Position numbers and translations under genes: made by a program. A model generated the notes under the pieces. It was given only the letters and a program-made list of their open reading frames with translations. It made no database searches and was not told where the DNA came from. Positions 7,695-45,517 of a stretch of DNA of 64,000 nt are shown piece after piece (the first letter of the stretch is position 1; the number at the start of each line of letters is the position of its first letter). Source of the stretch: Bacteroidales bacterium (GTDB lineage Bacteria > Bacteroidota > Bacteroidia > Bacteroidales > F082); assembly GCA_016285355.1 (NCBI GenBank), contig JAEEQP010000006.1:1-64000 (forward strand), read 5' to 3'.

Positions 7695-7705
7695 AAGTTA
7701 CAGCC

Positions 7706-8728: not shown

Positions 8729-8742
8729 TTCTCGGAATGATT

Positions 8743-8797: not shown

Positions 8798-8808
8798 GAG
8801 ATAGGATT

Positions 8809-8832
8809 TCTAGATGTTCTAGAGCATCTAGA
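8809..8832. repeat. TCTAGATG...CATCTAGA palindrome
   Basis: TCTAGATG (8809-8816) and CATCTAGA (8825-8832) flank a central TTCTAGAG, followed by another AATCTAGATT. It lies between the etfA terminator and the next gene. Function not known; it could be an operator or part of a second hairpin. Confidence 0.5.
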
Positions 8833-8867
8833 AAATCTAGATTGGGAAGTTCGAAAATGTAACATCA

Positions 8868-9545
8868 ATGGCAAATCAACTAGAAGCTGCTGAAAGAATT
8901 GAGTCTGTGCTTAGAAAACAGACTAATTGGAAGAATCTATGGTTCTACCAAAAGACGGTAGTCTTATATCAGATGACTTATGTCTTTACAAGACGGTTCC
9001 TGCCTGCATATGGGGATAGAACAGTTGACCAAATGGTACAAGCGGCTCGTTCTGGAAAGCAGAACATTGTTGAAGGTTCAGCAGATGGTGTGACCTCCAT
9101 GGAGATGGAACTAAAACTGTTGAATGTTGCCAGAGCAAGCATACAAGAACTGCTTGAGGATTACCAAGATTATATCAAAAGCCATAAACTGACTCAATGG
9201 GTACAGGGGCATACTCGTTTTGATGCCATGCTGTCATATTGTAGAAAGCACAATCAACTTGAAGATTATGAAGTCTTCTTCGAACGCTGGGATGATGAGG
9301 AAATGTCCAATACAGCCATAACTCTATGTCGAATGGTGGACAAGATGATGGTGAGTTACCAAAAGAGAAAGGAAGACGAATTCATTAAGGAAGGTGGTCT
9401 TCGTGAGCGAATGACTGCCGCTCGCCTCGGTTTTCGAGGTAGTCAAAAAGAAGCATTGGAAACAGCTCTGAAGGAGATAGAAACTCTCCGTAGGGAAAAT
9501 GCGGAGCTCAAATCAAAACTCAATTTTTTATCTAGTAATAATTGA
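8868..9545 (+). CDS. Four-helix-bundle protein with suffix domain
   Basis: A 225-aa soluble, mostly helical protein. The segment QKTVVLYQMTYVFTRRFL...MVQAARSGKQNIVEGSADG (about residues 28-75) matches the four-helix-bundle family related to the 23S rRNA intervening-sequence protein, in its longer Bacteroidetes form. The C-terminal 35 residues (from about 185) form a Glu/Lys/Leu-rich coiled coil. The biochemical role of the family is not established. It appears monocistronic after the etfA terminator, and the ThrE gene begins 25 bp after its stop. Confidence 0.75.
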   Translation: MANQLEAAERIESVLRKQTNWKNLWFYQKTVVLYQMTYVFTRRFLPAYGDRTVDQMVQAARSGKQNIVEGSADGVTSMEMELKLLNVARASIQELLEDYQDYIKSHKLTQWVQGHTRFDAMLSYCRKHNQLEDYEVFFERWDDEEMSNTAITLCRMVDKMMVSYQKRKEDEFIKEGGLRERMTAARLGFRGSQKEALETALKEIETLRRENAELKSKLNFLSSNN

Positions 9546-27700: not shown

Positions 27701-29052
27701 GGGGTTTTCGTCACCTGCTCACGGAACATGGAAACGATAGTTGCGGTCGTATCCAAGTCAGTATCGGTTTGGTTGAAACTGTCAAGCAAAGCGCATTGGC
27801 TCTTCGTGGTGATGTCGATGTCGCGCAGATAGGTTTGACTCAGGAAGCCTTCCAAGGTAGCCTCGTAACTCTCCATGAATTGGGCAATCAGCGTCTCGGA
27901 GTATTCGTTGGCATTGTATTCCGCCCTGATATGATATTGTTTGCCGACATAGAAGGCCATCAGATAGAACGATACATCTTCATTGTGTTTGCGGAGTTGT
28001 ATGGCCTGCATGGGTTTACCCATCAGTTCGGTGTAATCAAGCAAGAGTCCGTGCCACACAAAGATGGAGTTGCTTTGCAGGTTGAGGTCGGCCATCAGGT
28101 CGGTATAGGAATAGAGGTCATGCTTGCGGCTGCCGTCCATCTGTTCTTGATTGGCTTTCATGAAGTCAAGCACGGTGGTCTCGTCAGTAAACTTGGAGTA
28201 AACGGGCAGCGTCTTCACCGTCATGCCAACGGAATGTTGGAACTTCGGTTCGGTACGGCCGTTGTAAACCGTGTTGAACAACGATTCCTGCTCGTTGTTG
28301 TATTTGGCCAACAGGTAGGCATACGCCGCTGTGAAAAGGGTGCTCTTTTTGATGTCGTTGTCCTTGCAGAAGGCATTCACCCGATCCATGTCGATATTGA
28401 GGATGCGAACCAGATGGGCATCCGATTGTCCAGGAATTTCGCGGTCGGGGAGGAGTTGGGTGAACGTGTCGCCGCAGTCGAAGTTTTGGGCGTACCATTG
28501 TTTGCCTTCCTCGAAGGCAGGCGTTTTGCGCATTTCAGCTTCAGCAAGGGCCAGTTCCCGCATCGACATATCCTCGGGAGCAAGCGTGCCGCCGTTATAG
28601 GCCGTCTCCACATCGCTAATGATAATGTTGTAAGAGGTGCCGTCGCTGATAATATGGTGCATGTCGAAGAGCCAATAGATATGATTCGCGTCGCGCATCA
28701 CTTTGGTGTGAAACAGCCTACCGCCATAGAGTTTGAACGGCTCGATGAATTTCTGTTTCTCGGCTTCAAGGTCCAAGACCTGTTCGACGGAAAGGCTGAA
28801 ATTCTCCTTTTCCATATCGACGGACTGGAAGGGTTCGCCTTCGTCGGTCACTCCAATCCGCGTGAAGAAAGTGGGGTGCGCCTTTATCGTCGTCTCGATG
28901 GCGCGGCACAAACGGTCGGCATCAAGGCTGCCGTCAAAGACAAAGAGAAATGGCAGGTTGTAAAAAACCTCGTTTTCATGGCTTACGCATTCCGCATAGA
29001 TACCATATTGGGATCTTGTTAAAGGAGCAATAGAATTATTAGTTGTGCTCAT
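21766..29052 (-). CDS. Dimodular NRPS, C-A-T-C-A-T-reductase (first gene of operon)
   Basis: 2428 aa. C1 with HHIISDG (132-138); A1 with YTSGTTGTPKG (584-594), A4 FGFDANMME (627-635) and the A10 lysine in NQNQKVNKK (908-915); T1 with S967 in GLTSI; C2 with HHLVMDG (1151-1157); A2 with YTSGSTGTPKG (about 1606) and FDCCMMD (1651-1657); T2 with S1988 in LGGTSL; reductase with TGATGFLG (2068-2075) and Y2223/K2227. Hand-aligned codes: A1 D-A-M-F-L-G-L-V-C-K (hydrophobic pocket), A2 D-C-M-F-I-A-G-I-L-K. The predicted product is a small peptide aldehyde, possibly N-acylated. The gene is followed after 41 bp by a second NRPS and then a MATE exporter. A1 carries an in-frame 7-bp repeat insertion (27333-27367). 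No phosphopantetheinyl transferase is in the window. Confidence 0.93.
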   Translation of the reverse strand: MSTTNNSIAPLTRSQYGIYAECVSHENEVFYNLPFLFVFDGSLDADRLCRAIETTIKAHPTFFTRIGVTDEGEPFQSVDMEKENFSLSVEQVLDLEAEKQKFIEPFKLYGGRLFHTKVMRDANHIYWLFDMHHIISDGTSYNIIISDVETAYNGGTLAPEDMSMRELALAEAEMRKTPAFEEGKQWYAQNFDCGDTFTQLLPDREIPGQSDAHLVRILNIDMDRVNAFCKDNDIKKSTLFTAAYAYLLAKYNNEQESLFNTVYNGRTEPKFQHSVGMTVKTLPVYSKFTDETTVLDFMKANQEQMDGSRKHDLYSYTDLMADLNLQSNSIFVWHGLLLDYTELMGKPMQAIQLRKHNEDVSFYLMAFYVGKQYHIRAEYNANEYSETLIAQFMESYEATLEGFLSQTYLRDIDITTKSQCALLDSFNQTDTDLDTTATIVSMFREQVTKTPDNIAVVYKDKYFTYRELDEISDRIAAYIHGKGLHEEDVVSILIPRCEWMPIVSMGVLKAGCAYQPLDPTYPSERLNFMMQDASVKLLIADESLRDIVNEYQGDVLLTKDINQLPTVNCQLPTVKPEDLFIMLYTSGTTGTPKGCQLVHRNLVAFCKWYHRRFSLAPGCKVTAYASFGFDANMMETYPCLTSGATLYIIPEELRLDLLALNEYFEQEQITHGFMTTQVAYQFATSVENHSLRYLLTGGEKLAPLTPPTNYILANLYGPTESTVCITSFDVTKPMKDIPIGAALDNTKLYIVDKVGRRLPVGAAGELWVAGPQVSRGYLNRPEKTAEVYIANPFETKEKYAHIYRTGDIVRYLPDGNIQFVGRKDGQVKIRGFRIELKEVEGVILQFPGIKDATVQAFDEEGGGKFIAAYIVSDETIDIKALNDFILEQKPPYMVPAVTMQIDRIPLNQNQKVNKKALPKPEKKSEAVVESNVPMNLLEQEIHGIIAKIINTEDFGVTTVLGYVGLTSIMAIKLAIQINKRFGVTLDSKSLAKTGTLQSIENEILAKMMSEDTGEEAVKTETHADTNNVPLSYAQMGVYVDCVKQPEATVYNIPMAVRFPKDVDITLLTTALETLVKAHPQMRAHFGSSGSDIIQIIDFDQPIEILHSQHNEAEMDQYKREFVKPFNLRQGPLYRIEIVTTEQWVYLMLDFHHLVMDGGSFDLFLTQLFDLLNGHEIEPESFTYADFVAAEKAAESGAEYAAAKDFFQERLGNVEGVTEVPSDLTNPKEQGVIETLSSQLDFEAIESFCRQHNITPAHLTLAATFYALSRFTNNEQLCITTISNGRSDLRISNTTGMFVNTLALSATIGEQTVLEFLKETSKQFDETLRHEKYPFAQIAADYDLSAEILFAYQMGVIDEHKFKGQTLAIDNLESDTPKFRIAFYIMNDKKGKPSVCVEYDNGRYSHDLMQSLAQSICNAAKVFIRQPEMKLQQVSLLDAEQITILDSFNQTDVPYDDTQTIVSLFRRQVELTPDNMAVVYHENKYTYREVDDITERMAAYLVAKGLGREDVVSILIPRCEWMPIAALGVLKAGCAYQPLDPSYPAERLNFMIKDASAKLLIADESLRDIVNEYEGDVLLTKDIKQLPKVSEPVNVTVNPADLFILLYTSGSTGTPKGCQLEHRNLAAFCHWYQRRFELKAEHHVSCYASYGFDCCMMDMYPALTCGACVYIIGDDIRLTLPEVNDYFNENHITHSFMTTQVAYQFATNMDNHSLLHLIAAGEKLASLAPPTNFKLHNGYGPTEGTILITEYEVDKELKDIPVGKPLDNSRLYVVDKQFNRLPPGAMGELWISGAHVTRSYLNRPEKTAEVYIDNPFSDDPNFSRIYRTGDIVRYLPDGNIQFAGRKDGQVKIRGFRIELKEVEAVIRQFPGIKDVTVQAFEYENGGKYIAAYIVSDQKVDIKELNAFIGQQKPPYMIPAATMQIDSIPLNQNQKVNRKALPAPVIQAADHEYVEPTNEVEKLFCKIYSDILSMDKIGATDNFFELGGTSLMVTRVIIEADKAGHHIAYGDVFANPTPRMLANFLTGDTVDEDEEARKYNYGPINHILEGNTLDAFRNGEHQTIGNVLLTGATGFLGIHVLKELIDREDVPTIWCMVRAENEEKAERRLKGMLYYYFSNNYKELFGSRLRIINGDVTQDIKVDGKVDTVFNCAAVVKHFSKGTEIEDVNVGGAAHCVRFCLLNNARLIHISTYSTAGMSINEMPPEDTVYTEQKLYFGQNLGNQYVHSKFISERVVLDAVALHKLNAKVMRVGNLAPRSTDGEFQINFQTNSAMGRIRVYQMLGCYPYELTDTPMEFSPINEVAKAIVTLSETPQQCCLFHPYNNHYVHFGDVLEELSKVARGPRQVEAEAFNEAMEVAKQDPEKAKRLSSLIAYQDMAHGQKAVMIPSDNQYTTQVLYRLGFRWSSTSWDYVDQMLKAIAGFGYFDDIE
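27333..27367. repeat. Five tandem 7-bp units (CAGTTGG-like) inside NRPS A1
   Basis: Units read CAGTTGG, CAGTTGG, CAGTTGA, CAGTGGG, CAGTTGG on the plus strand. On the coding strand they give QLPTVNCQLPTV in the loop just before the A3 ATP-binding motif; the paralogous A domains have unrelated residues there. The unit resembles the intergenic heptamers at 5661. Confidence 0.75.
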
Positions 29053-31941: not shown

Positions 31942-32949
31942 ATGCCCAAAACGAAGAGCGCAGAACTAAGGATTAAGGTCATCGACGAATGCTTGAGCGA
32001 CCGTAAGCGGAAGTATTCAACTGCCAAGATATTTGAGCGTTGCAATGAGGAGTTGCTAAAACGAGATTTCATTCCTATCACGGCAATGAACTCTGTGCGC
32101 GATGATATCGAGCAGATCCAACGGATTTATCCAGGGGCTGATGTGGAATCGTACCGAGAGGGAAGGAATATCTACTACAGGTATGCCGACCCCAACTTTT
32201 CGATTTTCAAGACCCCGATGAAGCCGGATGAAATCATCCAGCTGACACAAACACTGCGATTGCTGCGTCGCTTCAAGGGGATGCCTCAATTTGATTGGGT
32301 AGATGAGATAGCGGAACGCTTGGGCGCATCACTTAAGCTGGACGAATCGACTGACGAGATAGTTGGCTTCGACGAGAATCTTGACTTGCAGGGAATGGAC
32401 AACTTCACGCCTTTGTTTAACGCCATCGTTGACAAACAGCCCCTGAAGCTGACTTACCAAAGTTTCAAGCAAGACAGCAAGGAAACCATCATCGTGCATC
32501 CGTACTACCTGAAACAGTACAACAAGCGTTGGTTCCTGATTGCGTGGAACGACGAATTTAACTTCATGGCCAACTATGCGTTTGACCGCATCAAGGGCAT
32601 AGAGAACGCGGATGTGGCCTATAAGCCTACGGATGTGAACTGGCTTGATTACTTCGATGAAATGATAGGTGTGTCGAAGGACACGAGGACTGAGCCGCAG
32701 AAGGTGCTTCTGTGGGTGTCGAATGCCTCATGGCCATACGTGAAGACCAAGCCGCTGCATGGCGCGACTCAACGGCTGGTGAATATGGACGAGACTGGTG
32801 CCTATATCACCATCGAAGTGTATCTGAACTATGAACTGGAACAACAAATTTTGAGCTTTGGCGAAAACATGAAAGTGATAGAGCCGGAGACCTTGAGGGA
32901 AAGGATGAAACAACGAATAAGTGATGCTTTGAAACTGTATGAAAAATAG
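31942..32949 (+). CDS. WYL-domain transcriptional regulator
   Basis: A 335-aa protein: N-terminal winged-helix part (residues 1-75), then the WYL domain with LFNAIVDKQPLKLTYQSF and HPYYLKQYNKRWFLIAWN (about 150-215), then the WCX-type C-terminus with LLWVSNASWPYVKTKPLH. WYL regulators of the BrxR/CapW kind bind inverted repeats and repress phage-defence genes until infection. It is the first gene of the island, and the operator-like sites GTTCAG-N5-CTGAAC begin right after its stop, so it is the obvious candidate to control the two downstream operons. The assignment as their repressor is inference. Confidence 0.85.
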   Translation: MPKTKSAELRIKVIDECLSDRKRKYSTAKIFERCNEELLKRDFIPITAMNSVRDDIEQIQRIYPGADVESYREGRNIYYRYADPNFSIFKTPMKPDEIIQLTQTLRLLRRFKGMPQFDWVDEIAERLGASLKLDESTDEIVGFDENLDLQGMDNFTPLFNAIVDKQPLKLTYQSFKQDSKETIIVHPYYLKQYNKRWFLIAWNDEFNFMANYAFDRIKGIENADVAYKPTDVNWLDYFDEMIGVSKDTRTEPQKVLLWVSNASWPYVKTKPLHGATQRLVNMDETGAYITIEVYLNYELEQQILSFGENMKVIEPETLRERMKQRISDALKLYEK

Positions 32950-33131: not shown

Positions 33132-35540
33132 ATGGATATGTATGATCATAATAAAGAACTTGCGCAGAATTTAGTTGACAGAATATGGGACTTGTTTAGG
33201 CAATCCCCTTGTAACATTTTTGATTTGTATTTTTGCGTTCTATATGTTCTTTACGGGATTCACAAGAACTATCCGATGGAAGTGCGCAGTGATAATTATG
33301 ATGAGATTGTTATCCATGGAGAAAATGATGCGCTTCTAAACGACCTTCACAGGTATGTTTCGGAGAAAAATAGCTTTTATGAATCACGTGAGTTTTCAAA
33401 GTTTTCTCATGACGTTTTAAAAGTTCTATTAGACGGCAACCGCGAGAGCTTTGAGGCTTGCTATTTTGATGTTTTGTACCAGCTGAATTATAAGTTGGTG
33501 ATGAATGGCCCTAGCATGGGCGAGTTTCTAACGCCTGATGCGATTAATAGACTTATTGCCTATATCGTGAATAAAGAGGGGTGCAGCTCTGTGTATGATC
33601 CATTTTGTGGTTCGGCTTCTATCGTTCATTTTCTCCATAAAGAAAACAGGCATTTGTCTTTCGTGGGGCAAGATGGTTCAGAAATGGCATCTTTGGTAGC
33701 GAGATTAAATGCAGAAGTGTATTTGAATACCAGTATTAGCCGTAAGGATTCTATAGTGAAATGGGATGAGTCTCATTTTGATGCTGTCATTTCGTGCCCG
33801 CCATTTGGAATACGTTTTTCTGAGCCCCAGCGACAGATGCTTGCTTATGAATACGGCGGTTTGAACAATAATGTGGAAGAAGTTTTTTTCTCCAGGGCAT
33901 TCCAAAGAAATGCTGCAAATCTTGTTGTAGCCTTATTGCCTTTGAGCTTTTGCCAATCACAACAGTATAAAAACTTGCGTACCTATCTTGTCAAAGATAA
34001 CTATCTCGATACAATCATATTTTTACCAGACAGGTTACTGTTTAATACAAGTATGCCTTGTGTTCTGGTTGTTTGTAAAAGACATAGAAAAGTTACGGCG
34101 CCTATTAAACTAATTGATGCTCAGTCCTTTTTTACTGGAGATAGTTCGAGAACACGAGAATTTGACTTGGACACATTCATTGGGGATTACGAAATGGATG
34201 TCGAAAAGATATGTTCGTTGGCTAGCTTCCAAGATGTGGTTGAGTGTGAATTCAATCTCAATCTTTATCTTTACAGCCAAAGAAAGATAGAATTGTTGGA
34301 AGGACAAAAAATGGTGACTTTTGGGTCGTTGATGACTGAGGCTCAAAGGGAACGTGTTCCTGCTTCTGATACCCACAAGGTTTTTCCATCCAAGAACTTT
34401 TCTCAGGACTTTATTGAGGTTCTGTTGAAAAAAAACAGTTTGGTTCCCTTTTCTGAAGAAAGGAGCACGAGCCCAAGGAAGCTCGTAAAAGTTGAAAAGG
34501 GTAAGAAGTATTTGCTATCAACTGGTGTAGTGCGTTCATCAAAGCCTAAATATGCTATATATACAGATAATGAAGATTTTTCTTGCACGTCTGATATTGT
34601 AGTGTTTGAGGTAAATGAGGAGTTGGTTAGTGTGGAGTATTTGGCATATCTCCTCATTAATAGCCCTGTGTTGAAAACGGGCAATTTTCCATTAACAAAT
34701 GTAGCAAAGCTGCATACTGCTATTGATAGCCCGGACAATCAGAGAGAGATTGTAGGGAAGCTTAAGCAAGAACACGCGGCAAGGGAAAAAGCCGAACAGG
34801 AAGCGGATGCTAAACGGTTAGGTGTGAAAACTAACATTTCCGACCTTGAACACATGCTGGGTACAACCTATGCCAACATGGACGATGTTATATATAGGCT
34901 TGGAAAGATTAGTTCTGAAGATGATGTACTTAAGTCACTTGTGAAAGAATTGAAGGATAATGTTGACTACTTGAAACGAGTGATTAGATACGATAATGCC
35001 AGTATTTCTGCAGAGGAATTCAGTTTTAAGGAGCAGGACATGGAAGCCTTTATACAAAGCTATTGTGAAAGCTGGAAAAACTATAGTGGCAAGTATTTTA
35101 AGCTGTCGCTTCAGGTCAATCTTGGCGAGCATAAAATGGTGGTTTTTGACAAGACGCTTATGAAAGTCATGCTTGACTCCATTCTTTCTAATGCTGAACG
35201 TCATGGATTTGACAAGCGCAGAAATGAGGCTAATCAAGTGGAGATAACTCTATCTCTCGAAAAGTACGAGGAAAAGCCTTTCGTCGTAATTAGAGTAGCC
35301 AATAATGGAGCACCCTTTAAAGACTTCAAAATCAATGATTACATAACACGAGGCCGATATTCATCCAAATCTGGACGTTCAGGGCTGGGTGGCTACCATG
35401 TTTATCAAATAGTAAAAGGGCACAGGGGCTTTTTGTATTTGGATTCCAATAAGATTTGGAATGTCATCGTAGAAGTCTTGTTGCCTATTAATAATGTTGA
35501 ATCAGATAATTTAGTTGAGTATGAACACGAATGTATATAA
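33132..35540 (+). CDS. HsdM-like / half-HsdS / histidine-kinase-like ATPase fusion protein
   Basis: An 802-aa protein with an unusual composition. Residues about 1-125: helical N-terminus as in HsdM. Residues 127-385: N6-adenine methyltransferase fold with motif I DPFCGSAS (156-163) but motif IV CPPF (222-225) instead of NPPF/NPPY. Residues about 395-550: a segment like one HsdS target-recognition half, ending in a helix start (DNQREIVGKLKQE) that mirrors the HsdS conserved region. Residues 550-620: coiled coil with a possible H-box DLEHMLGTT (H574). Residues 640-785: GHKL ATPase with N-box SILSNAERHGF (N687), G1-like NNGAPF (724-729) and G2 GRSGLGGYH (748-755). The next gene, overlapping by 20 bp, is a response-regulator-like protein. 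AT-rich compared with neighbours. Interpretation as a DNA-sensing histidine kinase is inference. Confidence 0.8.
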   Translation: MDMYDHNKELAQNLVDRIWDLFRQSPCNIFDLYFCVLYVLYGIHKNYPMEVRSDNYDEIVIHGENDALLNDLHRYVSEKNSFYESREFSKFSHDVLKVLLDGNRESFEACYFDVLYQLNYKLVMNGPSMGEFLTPDAINRLIAYIVNKEGCSSVYDPFCGSASIVHFLHKENRHLSFVGQDGSEMASLVARLNAEVYLNTSISRKDSIVKWDESHFDAVISCPPFGIRFSEPQRQMLAYEYGGLNNNVEEVFFSRAFQRNAANLVVALLPLSFCQSQQYKNLRTYLVKDNYLDTIIFLPDRLLFNTSMPCVLVVCKRHRKVTAPIKLIDAQSFFTGDSSRTREFDLDTFIGDYEMDVEKICSLASFQDVVECEFNLNLYLYSQRKIELLEGQKMVTFGSLMTEAQRERVPASDTHKVFPSKNFSQDFIEVLLKKNSLVPFSEERSTSPRKLVKVEKGKKYLLSTGVVRSSKPKYAIYTDNEDFSCTSDIVVFEVNEELVSVEYLAYLLINSPVLKTGNFPLTNVAKLHTAIDSPDNQREIVGKLKQEHAAREKAEQEADAKRLGVKTNISDLEHMLGTTYANMDDVIYRLGKISSEDDVLKSLVKELKDNVDYLKRVIRYDNASISAEEFSFKEQDMEAFIQSYCESWKNYSGKYFKLSLQVNLGEHKMVVFDKTLMKVMLDSILSNAERHGFDKRRNEANQVEITLSLEKYEEKPFVVIRVANNGAPFKDFKINDYITRGRYSSKSGRSGLGGYHVYQIVKGHRGFLYLDSNKIWNVIVEVLLPINNVESDNLVEYEHECI

Positions 35541-36690
35541 CATCGTTTGGGCAGACGACGAAATTGATGCCCTTGTTGATCGTTACGAAGAGAGATTTTT
35601 GGATAACGGTTTTCAGATTATTGGCAAAGCGCATGATGGCAAAGAATTAAAAGCAGTGCTATCGGAAATGACGCATAAAACTGATGCTGTCATTATTGAT
35701 GCCAATTTTCAGGCAGCTTCTTCAGACGGAGAATTAAGTGAGCGAGATATTCCTGGTCTTGATTATGCATATTCTTTGTATGCATTCGCATATGACCGTG
35801 AGATTCCTTTCTTTTTGTTCACACAACGTTCGGATGAGATGTTGCGAGAGCAATTGGTCAACAAGCCCGATTTTTTCGAGGATTTCAAAAGACATGAACA
35901 CTGGTTTAAGAAAAACGACGAGGATGAGCTTTATGAAATGTTTCAATCCATCAAAAAGGATGTAGACTATAAGAGGACCGATGCGTTTCTTGTTCGCAAT
36001 AAGTATAGGAAGGAATTTGAGGCGGCGAAGATGATTGATGATGCGGAAACAAATCTTGAAAAGGGGCTGCTGTTTCTGTATGACGATAATACTTGGAAAG
36101 ATACTCAGGATTATTTTAATCCGGCAAGAAAGATTGTTGAACGCATTGTGACAAAATGTGTGGCGATGAACATACTTCCACCTAAAATCACCCTCAACAA
36201 TGCTTCAAAACTCTTCTCGGGTTTTGAGACTGATAATCACGAGGCTTTAAAGGTAGAGGTGATGCCAAGGGCGTTGGCTGAATCACTTCATCATTTCTTG
36301 AAAATAACGCAAGATGGTTCGCATGATGCTAATGATATGGGGTTGGGTGTTGACAAGTATGTGAGAGATACGAAGAATATAAACCTGTATCGCTCCATTC
36401 TGTATATTGCGATGGATTTGCTGTTGTGGTATAAAGGTGTAGCAGAGAAATATAAAGGAAACATAAATCCCGTATGGGGGGAGAAGTTTATTCACGAAGG
36501 TAAGGTAAGCAGGGGCTTGGATAGTTATAATAGGGAGTACTTTTATGTTGGTAATTATGAGTTGGCCCAATCTAATGACCCAAAGATAAGGTCAGGCGTT
36601 ACCGTTAGGATTTATGGTTCTGAAACAAATAGGCATCCTAAAGGGAATCAAACGGAGTTTGTGAAAAAGGATATGTTTAGGATTTTATAA
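35521..36690 (+). CDS. Response-regulator-like protein with large uncharacterised C-terminal domain
   Basis: 389 aa from the ATG at 35521 (an in-frame TTG at 35515 is less likely). Residues 1-120 look like a receiver domain: NIVWADDEID with the acidic pair D12/D13, phospho-acceptor candidate D60 in AVIIDANFQ, and FFLFTQRSD with T101 at the place of the conserved Thr/Ser. The remaining about 265 residues have no recognised domain and lack an obvious helix-turn-helix; they are helical and include a late beta-rich stretch (VTVRIYGSETNRHPKGNQTEF). Its start lies inside the preceding gene, so the two are translationally coupled partners. The output could be an effector rather than transcriptional control. 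Confidence 0.7.
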   Translation: MNTNVYNIVWADDEIDALVDRYEERFLDNGFQIIGKAHDGKELKAVLSEMTHKTDAVIIDANFQAASSDGELSERDIPGLDYAYSLYAFAYDREIPFFLFTQRSDEMLREQLVNKPDFFEDFKRHEHWFKKNDEDELYEMFQSIKKDVDYKRTDAFLVRNKYRKEFEAAKMIDDAETNLEKGLLFLYDDNTWKDTQDYFNPARKIVERIVTKCVAMNILPPKITLNNASKLFSGFETDNHEALKVEVMPRALAESLHHFLKITQDGSHDANDMGLGVDKYVRDTKNINLYRSILYIAMDLLLWYKGVAEKYKGNINPVWGEKFIHEGKVSRGLDSYNREYFYVGNYELAQSNDPKIRSGVTVRIYGSETNRHPKGNQTEFVKKDMFRIL

Positions 36691-36694
36691 ATTG

Positions 36695-36729
36695 CTTCAA
36701 AATGACTGAACCTATAATATATACCTTTG
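36695..36729 (+). promoter_or_regulatory. Promoter with GTTCAG-N5-CTGAAC-like operator (copy 3), before hsdM
   Basis: Left half CTTCAA (36695-36700), AATGA, CTGAAC (36706-36711), then after 10 bp the -7 box TACCTTTG (36722-36729). Over about 44 bp this region matches copy 2 at roughly 36 positions by eye. It drives the type I R-M operon. Confidence 0.7.
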
Positions 36730-36753
36730 CACCCGAAAATATACAATAGCGTT

Positions 36754-38640
36754 ATGACAGACACTCAAAACCTACACCCCCAGCCTCGTGACATCATGCA
36801 CTACGAGAGCGATATTTGGGCAATCGCCGATTTGCTGCTGGCGGCCAGCGTGAAACAGAGCGACTTCCCGGCTTATATGATGCCGTTCTTCGCATTGATG
36901 ATGCTCGAAGGACGTATGCTGAACGCCATGAAACGTGTGGAGGAAGAAGAGGGACTGACCGTAAAGGATGACCCTGAGGACTTCAAGGAAGCCTTCATTG
37001 ATATGGACTGCGGCTACAACGAATATATCGTGATGCAAGGCAAGACGCTAAAGAACATCTGCAATAACGACAAGACGTTTGAACAGGATTTTGTCAGCTA
37101 TCTCAGCGAATTTGACCCTACACTGAAGAAGTTGCTGGGCATTGAGCGCGGTAAAGACGAGAAAAAGTATCTCAATATGGACTACTATGTGGCAGAGCTT
37201 CGTAGCAAGAAAATCCTTCTGTCTGTCATTACGGCTTGGTCGAAGATAGACCTTTCGCCCTACGATAACTCTGCCATCACAACGTTGGAGGAACATATCA
37301 AGCGCAAGTGGGCTGACATCAGCGCATCTACTGCTGGAGAGCAATATACCCCCGACGATATTATCTCGCTGATTGCCGACATCGTGGCTACGAAAGTAAC
37401 GAAGCCTAAGAATCAAAATATCCATGTCTATGACCCTACATGTGGCGGTGCCAACCTTCTGTTCGGTGTGGCTGACCGTCTGCACTCTCAGGCTGGGTAC
37501 CAGAACATCCACACTTGGGGTAGCGAATACAACGATGCGCTCTATGCTTTGGCGGCCATTGAGAGCCGCTTCCGCGGCCATTCGCATATCCACTATGGCA
37601 ACACTTTGACAACCGCCCCATTCATCGATAAGGATTTCGATGTGATTGTGGCCAACCCGCCATACGGCACCAAATGGAGCGGCTATGAGAAGGAAATCAA
37701 GAACGACCAGAAGGGGCAGTTCCCAGGCGGCCTGCCTGCCGTGAGTGACGGTCAGTTGCTCTTTATGCAGCACATTCTTTGGAAACTAGCCGAAGGTGGT
37801 ATTGCCGTTGAGGTGCATAATGGCTCTACGCTGTTCAGCGGTGATGCAGGCAGTGGCGAAAGCAATATTCGCAAATATATCTTTGACCACGACTGGGTTG
37901 AAGCCATCATTCAGATGCCGCAGAACGAATTTTTCAACACGGGCATCTACACCTATCTGTGGATTATGAACAAGCAGAAGCCCTTCGAGCGCAAGAACAA
38001 GGTGGCTCTTATTGATGGCAGTCGTTTGTGGCGACTATTGAAAAAGGCCAAAGGAGACAAGCGCCGTGAGATGACAGCGGAGCATCGCCAACAGATTGTG
38101 GATGCCTTGACGAACTTCGTCCCCAGCGACATTTGCAAAATCTTCGACCGAGAGCATTTCTATTACAACAAACAGTCGCTCACATTAACTGACCTCGATA
38201 GTGAAGGACGAAGCGTTTTGGATACCATCTGTCCGGAAGGAAAGCTGAAAGTGAAAGACGACGAGTATCGCTTCGATGAAGACCGCAACACCATGATTCG
38301 CGTGGCAGATGACGAAGCTGTGGGGTGTGGCAAGTTCACTTACAAGAACAAGAAAGACAGAAAGACTGGTACAACAATTGTTGAGACTTACATTGAGCCA
38401 TCTTACATCAACGACTACGAGATTATTCCCCACCATTTCGATGCTTATGAAAACAAAAGGGAAATAGATGCTTTCATGGAGCGATATATTTTCAAGCCCT
38501 ACGAGTTAGGGAAGAATGTTATTGGTGTTGAGCTGAACTTCAACAAGGAGTTCTATGTGCCAGAAAAGTTGGACAGCGTAGAGGATGTACTTTTGGAGTT
38601 GAAAGAACTGAACGACAAGCTGAAAGACATTGAATTATGA
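36754..38640 (+). CDS. hsdM: Type I restriction-modification methyltransferase subunit
   Basis: 628 aa from the ATG at 36754; a TTG at 36727 that extends the frame lies within the -7 box, so it cannot be used. N-terminal helical domain (1-190), then the methyltransferase with motif I DPTCGGA (227-233) and intact motif IV NPPY (301-304), followed by LLFMQHILWKLAEGG and FFNTGIYTYLWIMNK typical of HsdM. Forms M2S1 with HsdS to methylate adenine and, with HsdR, to restrict. The stop overlaps the start of the DUF1016 gene by 4 bp (ATGA). Confidence 0.93.
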   Translation: MTDTQNLHPQPRDIMHYESDIWAIADLLLAASVKQSDFPAYMMPFFALMMLEGRMLNAMKRVEEEEGLTVKDDPEDFKEAFIDMDCGYNEYIVMQGKTLKNICNNDKTFEQDFVSYLSEFDPTLKKLLGIERGKDEKKYLNMDYYVAELRSKKILLSVITAWSKIDLSPYDNSAITTLEEHIKRKWADISASTAGEQYTPDDIISLIADIVATKVTKPKNQNIHVYDPTCGGANLLFGVADRLHSQAGYQNIHTWGSEYNDALYALAAIESRFRGHSHIHYGNTLTTAPFIDKDFDVIVANPPYGTKWSGYEKEIKNDQKGQFPGGLPAVSDGQLLFMQHILWKLAEGGIAVEVHNGSTLFSGDAGSGESNIRKYIFDHDWVEAIIQMPQNEFFNTGIYTYLWIMNKQKPFERKNKVALIDGSRLWRLLKKAKGDKRREMTAEHRQQIVDALTNFVPSDICKIFDREHFYYNKQSLTLTDLDSEGRSVLDTICPEGKLKVKDDEYRFDEDRNTMIRVADDEAVGCGKFTYKNKKDRKTGTTIVETYIEPSYINDYEIIPHHFDAYENKREIDAFMERYIFKPYELGKNVIGVELNFNKEFYVPEKLDSVEDVLLELKELNDKLKDIEL

Positions 38641-39767
38641 AAGAGATACAAGAAACGAAAAAAGTAGAGGCTTTGTTTGAGCAAATCTCCGCCCTCATTG
38701 AACAAGGCAGACAGCATGTGGCTACAGCAGTAAACATTGCCGAGGTCTATACGAAATATGCTATTGGCCGATATATCGTGGAATACGAGCAGCAAGGAAA
38801 TGTTCGTGCTGAATACGGCAAGCAGGTATTGAAAGACTTGTCTGTCAAGCTGACTGAACGTTTTGGCGATGGCTGGTCATACCCGTCCATGAAGAATATC
38901 AGACAGTTTTACATGATATATTCCAAAAGGCTAAACACTGTTTACCCAATTGATCCAGAAAAGGCTAAACACTGTTTAGCCAATTCGGACCCCAGGAACT
39001 ATACTGCTGAAATTGACAAACAGGGTCTGTCAGAACCAACTTTTACACTTTCTTGGTCACACTATCTTGTGTTGATGCGTATTGAGAATCCAGATGCCCG
39101 CAACTTCTATGAGATAGAATGTTCTCAGCAGCAATGGAGTGTTCGCCAACTGAGTCGCCAGGTTGGTAGTAGTCTATACGAACGGTTGGCACTAAGCCGC
39201 GATAAGGACGAGGTGATGCGCCTGGCTCGTGAGGGACAGACCGTAGAGAAACCGTCCGACATCATCAAGAATCCGCTCACCTTGGAATTTCTGGGACTGA
39301 AACCAGAAGCGGTTTACACTGAAAGTAAATTGGAGAATGCCATTATCAACAAACTACAAATGTTCCTACTGGAATTAGGAAAGGGCTTCCTGTTTGAAAA
39401 ACGACAGAAGCGGTTCACCTTCGACGAGGAAAACTATTATGTTGACCTGGTGTTCTACAATCGTTTGCTACAGTGCTATGTGTTGATTGATTTGAAGACA
39501 GACAAACTGACACATCAGGACATCGGACAGATGCAGATGTACGTTAACTACTACGACCGCTATGTGCGGCAAGAGTTTGAGAAGCCCACCATCGGCATAC
39601 TCCTTTGTGAGAGCAAAAAAGACTCGCTGGTGGAGTTGACCCTGCCGAAAGATGCCAACATCTATGCAACAGCTTATCAGCTCTATCTGCCCGACAAGGC
39701 TTTGCTGCAAAGCAAGTTGAAGGAATGGATTGATGAGTTCAACGAAATGAAAGGTGGTGAGGAATGA
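38637..39767 (+). CDS. DUF1016/YhcG-family PD-(D/E)xK nuclease within the hsd operon
   Basis: A 376-aa protein. N-terminal part (about 1-200: YTKYAIGRYIVEYEQQG, FGDGWSYPSMKNIRQFY, SWSHYLVLMRI) matches the DUF1016 N-terminal domain; the C-terminal half (from about 215: NPLTLEFLGL, ESKLENAIINKLQMFLLELGKGFLFEKRQKRF) holds the nuclease core YYVDLVFYN...YVLIDLKT with D and the D-L-K pair. These proteins are common passengers of type I R-M operons; their exact role is not settled. It overlaps hsdM and hsdS by 4 bp on both sides, so it is translated as part of the set. Confidence 0.88.
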   Translation: MKEIQETKKVEALFEQISALIEQGRQHVATAVNIAEVYTKYAIGRYIVEYEQQGNVRAEYGKQVLKDLSVKLTERFGDGWSYPSMKNIRQFYMIYSKRLNTVYPIDPEKAKHCLANSDPRNYTAEIDKQGLSEPTFTLSWSHYLVLMRIENPDARNFYEIECSQQQWSVRQLSRQVGSSLYERLALSRDKDEVMRLAREGQTVEKPSDIIKNPLTLEFLGLKPEAVYTESKLENAIINKLQMFLLELGKGFLFEKRQKRFTFDEENYYVDLVFYNRLLQCYVLIDLKTDKLTHQDIGQMQMYVNYYDRYVRQEFEKPTIGILLCESKKDSLVELTLPKDANIYATAYQLYLPDKALLQSKLKEWIDEFNEMKGGEE

Positions 39768-41014
39768 CTGAGTGGAAAGAAACCAGATTGAAGAATCTGT
39801 TGGCAATACCTTTGTCATACGGACTGAATGTGTCTTCTGAAGATGACAGAGAGGATTGGCCTCGTTATATAAGAATTACCGACTTTGACGATTTCGACCT
39901 TTTAAGCGATGAGACATTTAAGTCTCTGCCAATGTCCATCGCCGAACCAGCGTTACTAAAAGACGGAGATTTATTATTTGCTAGAAGTGGTGCAACGGCA
40001 GGCAAAACTTTTTTGTATTCATCCTTGCCAAATGGGGCTTGCTATGCAGGTTATCTGATAAGAGCTCGTTTTAAGAAGAACCTAGTTAATCCAAAGTTCG
40101 TCAGCTACTTTACGAAAGGTACGGAATATTGTAATTGGAAAAATCGATATTGCATACAAACCACAATACAAAATATCAGTGCCGACAAATACAATCAACT
40201 GCCTATTAGTATTCCTTCTCTTTCAGTGCAGCAGCGTATAGTGGATTATCTGGATGAGAAACTAGCCAAGATAGACGAGCGGATTGCAGTTTTGGAAAAG
40301 CAACAGGATGCGTATGTGCGACTGAAAAAGAGCGTCATTCATCAAGCAGTTACCCGAGGTCTTAATCCTAATGTTCCCCTCAAAGACTCAGGCGTCGATT
40401 GGATTGGAATGATTCCTGAACATTGGGAAGTTAAGCGGATAAAAGATGTCATGTCAATTAATACACAAGTTCTTCCTGAGAATACTCCATATGATTACAT
40501 GTTCAAATATATAGACATAGGTAACGTATCAAGCGATGGAAAAATAACTATTGGGGAAGATGTTTCTTTTTATGAGGCTCCTTCACGAGCAAGAAGAATT
40601 ATAAAAAGAGGAGATGTATTAGTTTCTACTGTACGAACATATTTACGGGCAATAGCCCGAGTTGACTTTGAAGCAAACGATATAATTGCATCTACTGGTT
40701 TTGCGGTTTTAAGCCCCAAAACAAGAGTTGATTCTGCATTTGTTGTAAATGCTATTAGGGATATTTATATAGTGGATGCAATATGCAGCTTATCTACTGG
40801 TGTAAGCTATCCAGCTATATCCGCATTGCGTCTGTCTTCGATATCCTTTGCAATTCCTCCCCTTACAGAGCAGCAAGCCATTGCTAACTATCTCGATGAT
40901 AAATGTACTAAGATAGACGCTGTTATTGAGAACATCGGAAAGCAGATTGATGCCTCAAAGCGTCTGAAGAGAGCGTTGATAAACGAAGTAATTACAGGCC
41001 AACGCGCCGTTTAA
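39764..41014 (+). CDS. hsdS: Type I restriction-modification specificity subunit
   Basis: A 416-aa protein with the usual two target-recognition domains and two conserved helices: TRD1 about 1-150, first spacer helix from ISIPSLSVQQRIVDYLDEKLAKID (about 145-195), TRD2 introduced by SGVDWIGMIPEHWEVKRI (about 210), and the second helix from IPPLTEQQAIANYLDDKCTKID to the end. The two helices are near repeats of each other, as in functional HsdS. It selects the bipartite DNA target, which cannot be read from sequence. The ATG overlaps the previous stop. Confidence 0.93.
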   Translation: MTEWKETRLKNLLAIPLSYGLNVSSEDDREDWPRYIRITDFDDFDLLSDETFKSLPMSIAEPALLKDGDLLFARSGATAGKTFLYSSLPNGACYAGYLIRARFKKNLVNPKFVSYFTKGTEYCNWKNRYCIQTTIQNISADKYNQLPISIPSLSVQQRIVDYLDEKLAKIDERIAVLEKQQDAYVRLKKSVIHQAVTRGLNPNVPLKDSGVDWIGMIPEHWEVKRIKDVMSINTQVLPENTPYDYMFKYIDIGNVSSDGKITIGEDVSFYEAPSRARRIIKRGDVLVSTVRTYLRAIARVDFEANDIIASTGFAVLSPKTRVDSAFVVNAIRDIYIVDAICSLSTGVSYPAISALRLSSISFAIPPLTEQQAIANYLDDKCTKIDAVIENIGKQIDASKRLKRALINEVITGQRAV

Positions 41015-41026: not shown

Positions 41027-44000
41027 ATGAACGAACTGAAGATACAGCATGACTATGTGATGGAGTTCCTCTGCCGCCAGGAAGAAAAAGGTGGTCTGGG
41101 TTATCGCAGCGAGAGCAATATCGTGGTGAGCAACGATTTGTTTATCCCCTTTGTAATGGGCGAGTTTGTCAAGAATAGTCAGCCAGAAACATGGAACAGG
41201 CTGTTAAGAAAGTTCGATAATGACGAACAGACCCTCCAAACAGCCTTGAAGGACAAAGTGAAAGAGACACTTCTGGATGCCCAGAATGTGGCTATCTATA
41301 TCAATGGTCACAAGTCCATCACCTTTGAGGGTGAAAAGGTATGGCTTTTCTACGTCTCTGGAACGGAACTGAAAGGAGACGAAGAGTTCAAACAAAACAT
41401 CTTCTGTGTCGTGGAAGAGTCCAGTCATACGCTTAAAGCAGGCGACACAAAGCTTTATACCATCCGCCCGGATATTATGTTCTTTGTCAATGGCATCTAC
41501 ATTGGCTACATGGAACTGAAATCGTCCACTAAAGGACAGACGGCGCGTGTAAATGGACGTCAGAAGGTGGCGAAAGACTATCTGGCAACGGTGAAGGCAT
41601 TGACGAAATTGGAGAAACGTGACGCAAAGGCCATGAAACAACGCAAAGAGGTGATGGCCATCTACGAGAAAGCCATACACCTGACGGCCAGTGATTGCAA
41701 CGAGACCTACGTGATGCGAGGCATCAGCCAGTTCTTCGACATTGCTCACCAAGGTTTTTACAGCGAACCAGCAAAGACAGTGGACCAATTGACCCCTACC
41801 GTATTGGAACCATTCAAAGTATATCCTGTTACTGTTTCTGCACAGACCGAGACGGAGCGGTTCGAGGAGGTGATGCGTGCATTGTATAGTAAGAAAATGA
41901 TAGAGAAAGAGATACTCTATTACAACTTCATCGAATACAAGTATGTAAAAAAAGAGGGTGTAAAAGAACGCACATCAAATACTGGCCGATTGATTGCACC
42001 ACGTCCAAAACAGAAATTTGGATGTGACAAGATTATGGGGCGCATTACGGAAATGCTGGACCACGAGAATGAGCCCGGCTACTATATCAACAAACTCCGC
42101 AATTATCTCGAGACACAGGGGATTACGCCTCAAAAGATTGAGGAAATAATTCTCTTGCGAGAGCGCTATTTCAACAACAAATACGTCTATTCTCTCTTGC
42201 TGCAGTATGCCGCAGGATTTGGAAAGAGTAATATTATTGGATGGACTGCTTTGCAACTGAAAGACTATCGCTATGAAGGCGTGTATGCCTATGACAAAAT
42301 AATGATAGTGGTTGACCGCTTGCAGTTGCGCGACCAGTTGGATACCATGATGATGAACATGAACATTGACAAGTCGATGTTCGTGGAGGCAACAGACCGA
42401 GACACCTTCATCAATGCTTTAGATAGCAAATTGCGCATTATTGTCGTGAACATCCAGAAGTTCCTCGACCTGCAAGATGCACTTTCTGCAGCAGGGAAGA
42501 AACTGAAGAAAATGCGTGTGGCTTTCCTTATTGATGAGATTCATCGTAGCAATTCGGGCGAGAACAATCAGGAAATGATTGACCTCTTCGCTCGTCTGCA
42601 AGAAACATTCAATGTGGGTGGTCAGACTGTGGTGAAGAAAAACCTCCTGATTGGTTTCACCGCCACTCCAAGCGAAGAAACGCTGGCAAGGTTTGGTGAG
42701 TTCCGTAGCGCATTGACCAAGCCGATGTGGATTCCTTTTGACTGCTACACCATGCGCGAAGCCATTGAGGATGGTTATATCCTTGACCCCACAAAGGCCA
42801 TTATACCATACGCAGTACCTGTTGATTTCCAACTGCCTGAAGAGCTGGAAAATAGTGATGAAGATGATATAGACATCGTTCTCCGCAAGGATAGGGTCTA
42901 TTCTTTCGAGCCTCGTATGCGCAAGATTGCAGAATTCATTGTGCATCGTCTCGTTAGTCTGGTCTATAAGAAGATTCGCGGAGAAGGAAAGGCCATGTTG
43001 GCTGTGAGAAGCATTCCCAATGCCATCAAGTATTTCAACATCATTAGGTCGCTCTATGCCGAGAAATGTCAAGAACCTGCATACGAGAAATACAAGGATG
43101 CTCCTATCGTCATCATCTATAGTGATGATCAAAAGAATGAATCATGTGCTACGCTTAATGGTGGTGTGAGCGAAGAGAAGGTTATACAGAACTTCCGCCA
43201 AGCCAAAAACGGTTTGATTATCGTAGTGGATAAACTACAGACAGGATTTGATGAGCCTAAATTGCATACGCTTTTCCTTGACAAGGAAATCAGCGACATT
43301 AATGCCATACAGACCATCAGCCGTGTGAATCGCATCTGCAAGTACAAGGAAGATTGCCATATCGTTGATTGCTCCTGGCATAACGTGAATGTAGAGAACA
43401 TCAGGTGGGCTTTCGAAAAGTTCTGCGATATGGCCATCTCTGATTTCAATCCGGAATTTGAAGCCAAAAGTGTGGCTCGCACTTACAAGCTGCTTCAGGC
43501 CAGTGAACCTTATCTGCAATGGTACTCTCGTTATCAGCATGAGTGCGAAGACACACATTTCGTATTGGAAATGGAGGATGGAATCCGGAAGTGGATAGAA
43601 CAATGCTTTTATCAAGAGTCTCTTGCCAAGAAATATAATGAAGACAACGGATTGAAGCCATCGGATGCAGACTACCATGCAGTTATTAATCCTGCTCGCG
43701 ACTTGCGGAATTTGGTAGGTCATTACTTTTCCGGCATTCGGCTGTTGGATGGCGTTTTCGTTATCGACAGAAAGTACTATGACGAAGTGTTTCTAATGTT
43801 CTGGCAGATATATTGCCATATCTATCGCGAGGTGACTTATCAAATAGAGGAGGAACCATACGAGTATGAGGTGATTGACAGTGATGAAGAACCAGGCATA
43901 ACCCTCGTAGATGGCGAAGGCAATGGCGATGGTGGTGGTGGACAAAGAGGCCCACAAGGAGGTTCTGGTCCACAGCCTCCAAAGGGCAAAAGTATGGACG

Positions 44001-45517
44001 AAGTGCTGGCCATCTTGCAAAGGTTACACGAAACAGAACAGTTGACAGCCGAACAAGCGCAAGTCTGGTTGAGGGAAATCGGCTTGATGTTTGAGTATAT
44101 CAAGGGAGATAGCGAGTTTTGTGCCTTTGCGCAAGATGACAACTACACAGAAGAGGAAAAGCTGGCAGAATACAAGAAAGTCCAAGGAAGGTATCGTCGT
44201 AGCTTGAAAAACCGTCCCGATTTCGCACAGGTGGAGCGCTTCAAGCAAATGATAATTGAAAATGTTGAGCAATTGTTTTCCATCTTCATGGCAGATTTGC
44301 GCAATGTTGAAAACGGAGATTCGGACTTTGACTATGATACCACAAATCAAGAACAACCCAAGGAAGGATTCTCCATGGAAGATTTGATGGAGATGGCACG
44401 TCGCAAGATTCGTCCGGATTATAATGAGACAGCCCTGAAAGAACGGATAGTTGCTTCTTATGCAACTCATTTCAATGGGTTGTCAAAATACATGCCTTCA
44501 TTCGATGAAACCGTTGACAGCATGTTTAAGGTCTTGAATACGCCATCGTTGCCAGGTTTGGATGGTGTGGACAGCGTAGTGAAAGAGTCGCTTAATATGG
44601 TATGTATGGCCGAGGGCCTTTCTTTGTCTGACAAGCGAATGCATCTTGATATGCTGTTGTTGCGTTACGAGGTATATTTGAAGAAACTCTATTACCTCAT
44701 TCATGGTGAGGAGCTGCCTGCGAGAGAAGAAGGACAAGGCGCTACGCTATCAAACGCCATTTTTGCTTTCCCTGCACTCAGAGGTTTAAAGAACAATCCG
44801 AAGCCTGAATATCAGGAGTTCTCACAGAGGTTGTCAATGCTGCGTCAACTGCGAAACCATGAGTCGCACGGAAGCCTTGAAATATCAGAGCAGGAAGTAG
44901 ATGCAGCAATACGTATCGTCATCGACATGTATCTATTTGTGACGGGTATGAATGTGGATAATTTGAGCGATGAAAATGAAGCGACCAAAACTCCTTTGCA
45001 TTCTGTCAACTATGAAGTGCGTGAAGATAGTGATTTGCCTATGGCTGCTGAAAATATCTTTGTTTACGGTAGCATACCCGTTGATTTGCCGAAAATCAAC
45101 AGGAATGATTTGGTAGAGAACAAACTTGATTTGGTTCTTATGTATGCCATTGGAAATCCAGTAGCACGAAAGAAAACGGAAGCAGTAGGAAAAATCGCTT
45201 TGGGTATTAAAGAAAAGGTCTTGAACGAGATACAAAAGACTTCTTACAAAAGTGTGAAGTATTTGATGTTCCATTATTGGAAAGACCCTAAAACTTTCCA
45301 GCTCACAAAAGTCCCTCTTCTTGTTGAAGTAGAAGACGTTCCCGCCGACTTTTTGGTTAGGCAGCCCAATGATGCTGTTAAATACCTGCTACTTGAGTAT
45401 AATCCTAATGAGCCTATAAACATGGATGACATCAACATTTTAAGGACCCAGCGTAGAGGTGAAATCAGATACATGCCATTCGTAACTACAATCGAGAGTG
45501 TCACGGAAGAAAAATGA
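41027..45517 (+). CDS. hsdR: Type I restriction endonuclease subunit with extended C-terminus
   Basis: A 1496-aa protein, longer than the usual 1000-1150. N-terminal nuclease core with D149 and E163-L-K165 (RPDIMFF...YMELKSS); helicase with Walker A AAGFGKS (395-401), DEIH in FLIDEIHRS, FTATPSEE, and motif VI-like QTISRVNRICKYK. After the helicase a glycine/proline-rich linker (from about 970) leads to a helical domain and a further region with RQLRNHESHGSLEI; the last about 150 residues (AENIFVYGSIPVDLPKINRND...) form an unrecognised extension. It translocates DNA and cuts non-modified targets together with HsdM/HsdS. It begins 12 bp after hsdS. Confidence 0.92.
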   Translation: MNELKIQHDYVMEFLCRQEEKGGLGYRSESNIVVSNDLFIPFVMGEFVKNSQPETWNRLLRKFDNDEQTLQTALKDKVKETLLDAQNVAIYINGHKSITFEGEKVWLFYVSGTELKGDEEFKQNIFCVVEESSHTLKAGDTKLYTIRPDIMFFVNGIYIGYMELKSSTKGQTARVNGRQKVAKDYLATVKALTKLEKRDAKAMKQRKEVMAIYEKAIHLTASDCNETYVMRGISQFFDIAHQGFYSEPAKTVDQLTPTVLEPFKVYPVTVSAQTETERFEEVMRALYSKKMIEKEILYYNFIEYKYVKKEGVKERTSNTGRLIAPRPKQKFGCDKIMGRITEMLDHENEPGYYINKLRNYLETQGITPQKIEEIILLRERYFNNKYVYSLLLQYAAGFGKSNIIGWTALQLKDYRYEGVYAYDKIMIVVDRLQLRDQLDTMMMNMNIDKSMFVEATDRDTFINALDSKLRIIVVNIQKFLDLQDALSAAGKKLKKMRVAFLIDEIHRSNSGENNQEMIDLFARLQETFNVGGQTVVKKNLLIGFTATPSEETLARFGEFRSALTKPMWIPFDCYTMREAIEDGYILDPTKAIIPYAVPVDFQLPEELENSDEDDIDIVLRKDRVYSFEPRMRKIAEFIVHRLVSLVYKKIRGEGKAMLAVRSIPNAIKYFNIIRSLYAEKCQEPAYEKYKDAPIVIIYSDDQKNESCATLNGGVSEEKVIQNFRQAKNGLIIVVDKLQTGFDEPKLHTLFLDKEISDINAIQTISRVNRICKYKEDCHIVDCSWHNVNVENIRWAFEKFCDMAISDFNPEFEAKSVARTYKLLQASEPYLQWYSRYQHECEDTHFVLEMEDGIRKWIEQCFYQESLAKKYNEDNGLKPSDADYHAVINPARDLRNLVGHYFSGIRLLDGVFVIDRKYYDEVFLMFWQIYCHIYREVTYQIEEEPYEYEVIDSDEEPGITLVDGEGNGDGGGGQRGPQGGSGPQPPKGKSMDEVLAILQRLHETEQLTAEQAQVWLREIGLMFEYIKGDSEFCAFAQDDNYTEEEKLAEYKKVQGRYRRSLKNRPDFAQVERFKQMIIENVEQLFSIFMADLRNVENGDSDFDYDTTNQEQPKEGFSMEDLMEMARRKIRPDYNETALKERIVASYATHFNGLSKYMPSFDETVDSMFKVLNTPSLPGLDGVDSVVKESLNMVCMAEGLSLSDKRMHLDMLLLRYEVYLKKLYYLIHGEELPAREEGQGATLSNAIFAFPALRGLKNNPKPEYQEFSQRLSMLRQLRNHESHGSLEISEQEVDAAIRIVIDMYLFVTGMNVDNLSDENEATKTPLHSVNYEVREDSDLPMAAENIFVYGSIPVDLPKINRNDLVENKLDLVLMYAIGNPVARKKTEAVGKIALGIKEKVLNEIQKTSYKSVKYLMFHYWKDPKTFQLTKVPLLVEVEDVPADFLVRQPNDAVKYLLLEYNPNEPINMDDINILRTQRRGEIRYMPFVTTIESVTEEK

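Follow-up and report, generated by a model that had tools for sequence, protein, structure and literature searches.

A candidate immune two-component system with a methyltransferase-like sensor half in a Bacteroidales restriction-modification island

Signalling by histidine kinases and receiver proteins has already been described in bacterial immunity and around restriction-modification (R-M) genes. As far as the consulted portions of the following sources go, Detocs is made of three genes (DtcA, DtcB and DtcC), one of which encodes a phosphate-buffer protein; the effector described best is a purine nucleoside phosphorylase that cleaves ATP (PMC11728103, PMC11249213). HEF_HK (PF19191) and Response_reg_2 (PF19192) are predicted to form a soluble, R-M-linked kinase-receiver pair, mostly with HATPase_c_3 as its input and with a bias of HEF_HK towards type II R-M systems and C5 methylases, and the consulted portion of that source describes no methyltransferase fusion (PMC8011034). 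CapK is a GHKL kinase activated by single-stranded DNA, which stands beside immune operons, sometimes with R-M genes, and phosphorylates its partner CapS (PMC13373217), and Cam2 is a membrane protein with a receiver domain in type III loci, which has no kinase associated with it and for which binding of cyclic oligoadenylate is proposed (PMC11229360). HATPase and REC domains are also named in a figure of the systems predicted by DefensePredictor (PMC13092281). In this study we analyse a gene pair in a window of 64,000 nt, the whole stretch of DNA under analysis, from contig JAEEQP010000006.1 (GCA_016285355.1) of a Bacteroidales bacterium, where a fusion of HsdM-like, target-recognition domain (TRD) and histidine-kinase parts, called MK below, is followed by a receiver-effector partner, called RR; residue numbers are those of the window proteins. 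Burroughs and Aravind (2020, J. Bacteriol.) reportedly dealt with immune systems including histidine-kinase signalling and may mention relatives. We consider it probable that MK-RR is an immune two-component system in which the DNA-reading input can be swapped and the effector is directed at nucleic acid.

The pair is like Detocs in combining a histidine kinase with a response-regulator effector, presumably in anti-phage defence as well, and the available part of the Detocs description sets it apart, since MK-RR has two genes plus a WYL-domain regulator, an HsdM/TRD input and another effector. As for a third, buffer-receiver-like gene, the RR profile matches one gene per locus in the loci scanned with it, and a divergent DtcB could escape it. 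With Response_reg_2/HEF_HK, as described in the portion consulted, the pair shares the canonical receiver residues, the H-box His and the linkage to R-M genes. PF19192 and PF19191 gave no match at E<1 in the window pair, in ten other RRs or in ten other kinases, and they are not among the families listed (25 of 54) for the alignment of 120 RR members. CapK/CapS differs, by the same partial source, in that the phosphorylated residue of CapS, a STAS-wHTH repressor, is Ser, and in that there is no DHp-receiver pair and no HsdM. HsdM and HsdS of type I R-M systems have the same fold as MK residues 1-533, from which MK differs by its kinase fusion, by CPPF in place of NPPY and by standing beside a separate true HsdM in the same island. 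Among the papers listed by the literature searches, none describes the composition HsdM/TRD-kinase plus receiver-effector. The claim of the first-pass annotation that no such system had been described therefore stands for the composition in that literature and has to be narrowed for kinase-receiver systems in defence or R-M contexts, of which Detocs and Response_reg_2/HEF_HK are examples: immune two-component signalling is known already, and what is new, within the literature searched, is the input, the family of the effector and the swapping of sensors.

Both genes lie on the + strand, and the reading frame of RR (35521..36690, 389 aa from ATG or 391 aa from TTG at 35515) overlaps the 3' end of MK (33132..35540, 802 aa). 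MK is composed of an HsdM N-domain with a methyltransferase fold (residues 1-385, 33132..34286), an HsdS-like target-recognition segment (residues ~393-533, 34308..34730), a coiled-coil stalk with DHp (residues 534-620, 34731..34991) and a HATPase/CA domain (residues 633-785, 35028..35486). In the model of MK, a single helix runs over 534-592 and a second one over 599-620. The predicted phospho-donor is H574 (34851-34853), and the CA domain carries the N box with N687 (35190-35192), the G1 box with N724/G726 and the G2 box with G751/G753 (35373-35393). RR starts with a receiver domain (35530..35979; D12, D13, T101, K131) whose predicted acceptor is D60 (35698-35700), continues with a helical effector domain (35980..36462; R203, E207, H268, motif ITQDGSHD) and ends in a beta-rich part (36466..36687).

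These residues are strongly conserved in both partners. From a capped set of 7,988 candidates scored, the MK search returned 63 proteins, 60 of them full-length relatives, and the MK set omits the other three (P0181-P0183), which are distant methyltransferases; for RR, 377 proteins were obtained at E <=1e-3, and the 120 listed among them were used. With the window protein added, H574 and N687 are present in 61/61 MKs, D60, K131, R203 and H268 in 121/121 RRs, and E207 in 120/121. A stricter set consists of divergent members with 17-37% identity to the window protein, namely 14 MKs, the window included, and 15 RRs. In the 14 MKs, the invariant columns are M1, G160, P299, H574, N687, A688, N724, G726, G751 and G753, so that seven of the ten belong to the kinase and all three CA boxes are retained; in the 15 RRs they are D12, D13, D60, K131, R203, E207 and H268, position 101 being T or S, which gives the receiver set plus three effector residues. 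What is more, the kinase models VanS, AtoS and EnvZ match MK within 594-791, HATPase_c is listed for 9 of 10 upstream proteins scanned with Pfam and exceeds the cut-off in three of ten such relatives, and a fold search finds the receiver fold in RR, whose alignment shows the Asp pair, acceptor Asp, Thr/Ser and Lys. The first reading of this DNA as a methyltransferase/TRD/histidine-kinase fusion with a receiver-like partner, for which conserved H574, N687 and D60 and a receiver fold had been expected, is borne out by these data, and we regard it as highly likely from the sequences that MK and RR form a phosphotransfer pair. The C-terminal residues YEHECI of MK (35500-35537) are nearly invariant among close relatives, C801 being kept in 98%, and are a possible docking tail for RR.

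The sensor half shows another pattern. Residues 1-533 have the fold of type I R-M HsdM/HsdS by fold comparison, the HsdM part being recognised by Pfam as well, and methyltransferases with TRDs align to MK as far as ~553. In PADLOC, the only matches of MK besides the methyltransferase model mad2 are to generic models of the methyltransferase and specificity kinds, with a weak Specificity_I match (E 0.0024) in the window TRD, and Methylase_S is above the cut-off in the relatives L041 and L043. Active N6-adenine DNA methyltransferases carry [D/N/S]PP[F/Y/W] as motif IV, and the CPPF of the window MK (33795-33806) falls outside this pattern. The first residue of motif IV is C in 60/61 close MKs, with C-P-P for N-P-P in 59/61, and in the 14 divergent MKs it is C, T, N, Q, E, H or A, N occurring in six. 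Full NPPF is found only in L003 and L005 of these 14, where motif I reads NPFAG with N for D; D156 in motif I is combined with NPPF in motif IV in 0/14. At the same time, the window subfamily keeps the S-adenosylmethionine motif I (DPFCG, 33597-33611), with G160 in 61/61 and D156 in 60/61. This retained motif is the argument for seeing MK as an adenine methyltransferase that is still active, whose chief task would be modification and whose kinase part would regulate it. We hold that explanation to be very improbable, because the catalytic Asn is replaced by Cys almost throughout the close relatives, the two motifs are never intact together in the divergent ones, a separate HsdM with NPPY is encoded in the island, and conservation is lower ahead of the stalk (mean pairwise identity 0.36-0.49) than in DHp (0.53) and CA (0.59). 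Since the kinase boxes are invariant and the catalytic motif of the methyltransferase is variable, the selected function of MK appears to be kinase signalling rather than methylation.

Sensor halves also differ between MKs whose transmitters are nearly the same. Among 84 MK pairs with transmitter identity >=0.80, sensor identity is <0.50 in 25; for example, P0122 and P0124 have 92% of the transmitter in common and 34% of the sensor. Identity steps up near residue 535-545, and for five relatives compared with the window MK in 40-residue windows it is 48-65% in the window starting at 501 and 88-92% in that starting at 541. Though replacement and very fast divergence could both make the sensor halves differ, such a sharp step favours replacement, by which the sensor halves would have been swapped. 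RR is a mosaic too, as P0003 has 68% identity in the receiver vs 99% in the helical and barrel parts. Co-variation was analysed in nine linked pairs, the window plus 8 further MK-RR pairs, which were assigned to each other by longest contigs of equal length (0-1 such matches in a control with shifted lengths). In these, receiver identity follows that of CA with rho 0.91 (0/500 permutations) and that of DHp with rho 0.80 (2/500), vs rho -0.08 for the methyltransferase part and 0.07 for the TRD, which fits a cognate transmitter-receiver unit with exchangeable inputs.

In regard to the effector, R203, E207 and H268 of the helical domain are invariant and position 299 is D or E. Sequence searches of Pfam, PADLOC, NCBIfam and PDB found no family for this domain. 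PADLOC models matching RR number zero, in keeping with the earlier expectation that the partner lies outside the characterised defence families, and Pfam scans of the window RR and its relatives recognised no DNA-binding transcription domain. Scattered matches were obtained to PRD in 29/120 members (best E 6.3e-4) and to OKR_DC_1_N in 22/120 (best 6.8e-5), and the Foldseek and VIA matches listed for RR rest on the receiver part. The RR model has strands in its C-terminal part, and one of ten relatives scanned, the L043 RR, has C-terminal matches to S1CSD-TOTE-2 (1.6e-4) and OB_RNB (3.2e-4), both below cut-off; from these we infer an S1/cold-shock (OB)-like barrel. We tentatively suggest that the effector is directed at nucleic acid, with RNA as the most likely target.

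Fifteen loci besides the window were examined, all obtained with RR or its relative P0185 as the sole query. Immediately upstream of RR lies a gene of MK type in 13 of them and one for another HATPase protein in two (L046 and L083), giving 14 MK-type loci with the window. The first gene of the window cassette encodes a WYL/WCX-domain regulator (31942..32949, +; Pfam WYL 3.7e-14, WCX 7.5e-11), and a WYL gene stands upstream of MK in 11 of the 12 MK-type loci with upstream sequence, L042 being without it; the contigs of L002 and L041 end too soon upstream for these loci to be counted here, and L045 has a 248-aa open reading frame (ORF) between WYL and MK. On its other side the window pair is flanked, on the + strand, by a true HsdM with canonical NPPY (36727..38640, N6_Mtase 4.8e-51), followed by three genes identified by profile matches, a PD-(D/E)XK nuclease of the YhcG/PDC-S02 family (38637..39767), HsdS (39764..41014) and HsdR (41027..45517). 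HsdM-like and HsdS genes are downstream in 10/13 MK-type loci with downstream sequence, and R-M genes were not found in L001, L039 and L045 within ~9-10 kb (window proteins as queries, E 1e-3). The type I R-M island in which the pair was first placed is thus its frequent setting, from which the cassette is free in three of the 13 loci.

This setting, together with HsdM/HsdS-like folds of MK that could join R-M complexes, gives reason to ask whether the pair controls the adjacent type I R-M system. MK would then sense methylation or occupancy of the host DNA, and RR would tune HsdR activity or R-M expression as a restriction-alleviation or induction switch. A further point in its favour is that DUF4145, to which RR has a non-significant match, occurs in frames of 1,011-1,173 aa in 12/31 and of 1,091-1,168 aa in 3/3 cases, HsdR-like by size alone. 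Such control seems unlikely to us, because there are the three loci where R-M genes were not found, the RR family occurs in CRISPR and CARF loci, the TRD of MK has no preferential likeness to the HsdS of its island, and RR lacks a recognised DNA-binding transcription domain.

Several neighbours were noted besides. The YhcG/PDC-S02 nuclease-family gene sits between HsdM and HsdS in the window, and L040 has one too. Two giant genes on the - strand flank the window island, 21766-29052 (2428 aa) and 46317-53597 (2426 aa); they look alike and, by eye, like nonribosomal peptide synthetases, so that the island seemingly lies between paralogous biosynthetic genes. A reverse-transcriptase gene (15645-17210, RVT_1 2.9e-17) is in the R-M island downstream of MK-RR in L003, and L004 has a similar-looking ORF at 15962. 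A NERD-UvrD helicase follows RR directly or soon after in L044 (10643-12793) and L045 (12144-14348, in two frames), and is a candidate alternative nuclease companion in both loci, R-M genes not having been found in L045.

The two loci with another HATPase protein bring the RR family beside CRISPR and CARF genes. L046 (604-12187), in a metagenome-assembled genome of Melioribacteraceae, is a type III-A CRISPR locus in which the pair comes after Csm1, Csm2 and RAMP genes. Its kinase-like protein has 763 aa, the H-box LRHQ and a HATPase_c match of 0.0026, with no methyltransferase recognised; its RR, of 307 aa, ends after the helical domain and has E 2e-14 to the RR profile; it is followed by a CARF protein, Csx1-like with a match below cut-off, and by Cas6. 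The L046 RR differs from Cam2, in the partial description cited above, by having an adjacent kinase, and the pair between the RAMP genes and the Csx1-like gene is possibly a phosphotransfer arm of the type III system. In L083 (7276-10518) a CARF-like protein (RtcR 9.2e-8) stands in a row with a HATPase protein of 435 aa and a relative of RR. Here N aligns at the position of the donor His and E at that of the acceptor Asp, and R203, E207, H268 and the ATP-site residues are kept. The sole locus of 16 that loses the donor His is thus the sole one that loses the acceptor Asp, as predicted for a phosphotransfer pair. It suggests as well that a phosphorylation-free mode can exist and that L083 may be a phosphorylation-independent offshoot.

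For the family as a whole, one could take MK for a GHKL ATPase machine, which on binding ATP would close around DNA as a MORC-like clamp, with RR attached and no phosphotransfer. L083 makes such a mode probable in at least one branch, and R-M-linked GHKL proteins are said, in the portion consulted, to be related to paraMORC ATPases (PMC8011034). It is nevertheless quite improbable as a general explanation, since H574 in 14/14 MKs and in the CRISPR-linked kinase and D60 with K131 in 15/15 RRs would be hard to explain otherwise than by phosphotransfer, to which the kinase model matches are added.

Regarding occurrence, retained RR hits were found in 4/393 and 5/395 genomes of two orders, 1/391 of a class and 3/395 of a phylum, and those of P0185 in 2/164 genomes of a further order, seeds included. 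Rows with E 1.2e-4 to 9.3e-4 were dropped where the match, in frames of 217-539 aa, stayed within positions 2-120 of the receiver, which concerned 5/9, 4/9, 1/2 and 1/4 matching genomes in the four genome searches; G1240 (E 1.4e-4) was retained with a match to the effector part, its whole ORF then giving 2e-14, and L008, a hit in G003 with an internal stop, was set aside. One cassette, L047, is on a mobilizable Myroides plasmid, with three records of one plasmid type, and there were no plasmid matches for P0185, the L045 RR or P0184. Three further relatives of P0185 were found without genomic context.

Taking MK-RR as an immune two-component system, the mechanism might be as follows. Both proteins are probably soluble. 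In an MK dimer, the HsdM-like and TRD arms would form a DNA-reading clamp for which methylation is no longer needed. Engagement of cognate DNA, presumably invading or aberrant, would send a signal through the coiled-coil stalk to DHp, the CA domain would phosphorylate H574, and the phosphoryl group would pass to D60 of RR. The effector so released, with its helical R203/E207/H268 domain and OB-like barrel, would act on nucleic acid, most likely RNA, and arrest the infection. WYL would govern expression of the cassette, the R-M genes being frequent and optional companions. Of the parts of this scheme, a role in defence is likely, and DNA as the input of MK we judge to be somewhat favoured.

A number of results weigh against this scheme. 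On the kinase side, the DHp/CA identity of MK comes from conserved boxes and modelled helices rather than from a fold search; HATPase_c reaches 24.5 bits in the window MK, below the Pfam cut-off, and gives no match at E<1 in the L044 MK, whose membership is by profile and conserved boxes, while that of the L005, L039, L040 and L047 MKs is also by profile or alignment. On the receiver side, PF00072 reached E<1 in only 1/120 RR members. The linkage of the eight extra pairs behind the correlations is itself an assignment, and receiver identity in the 14 divergent loci gives rho 0.48 for DHp, 0.29 for CA, 0.48 for the methyltransferase and 0.54 for the TRD, adding nothing, while all 22 pairs give 0.69, 0.67, 0.45 and 0.59, a modest contrast. 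The L039 MK (7513-9528, 671 aa), in a locus where R-M genes were not found, lacks most of the TRD (21 aligned residues), and site-specific reading is therefore not universal. In 10 islands, the own-island HsdS is the best match of the MK TRD in 2, by which the hypothesis that MK and HsdS read one site is unsupported; of the phosphorelay with an M/S-derived sensor proposed at first, the transmitter-receiver pair is supported, with DNA or its methylation state as a presumed signal. For the effector, the helical domain aligns in fitting register with DUF4145, which we take to be a HEPN-like family, the profile being built from 31/33 loci (two too short; 27 in a trimmed version), and the best hhalign score of 18.2 (probability 2.7%) is not significant, with controls up to 15.0 with one profile reversed and 15.9 with both, leaving the DUF4145/HEPN likeness suggestive only. 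Phage records and two viral-contig scans gave no matches, so that the link to phages is drawn from neighbours only.

A wider proposal may be put forward as a conjecture. The receiver-effector family, with the OB barrel optional, could be a general immune output module under interchangeable nucleic-acid alarms, namely a retired methyltransferase, a type III-A kinase and a CARF sensor, and the HsdM/TRD half would be replaced wholesale in the manner of an immune receptor, so that the recognition of a site is converted into a phosphorelay. The association with CRISPR and CARF is based on two loci, and its recurrence is unproven. One receiver-effector family in such loci would join three branches of prokaryotic immunity by one output. 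If confirmed, MK-RR would represent a novel means by which bacteria detect invading DNA, and would show that the DNA-recognition parts of restriction systems are reused as phosphotransfer inputs, by which foreign DNA is reported and not just cut. With a conserved transmitter and receiver behind a sensor that diverges or is replaced, different inputs to the same output may be compared and the recognition by the sensor becomes testable.

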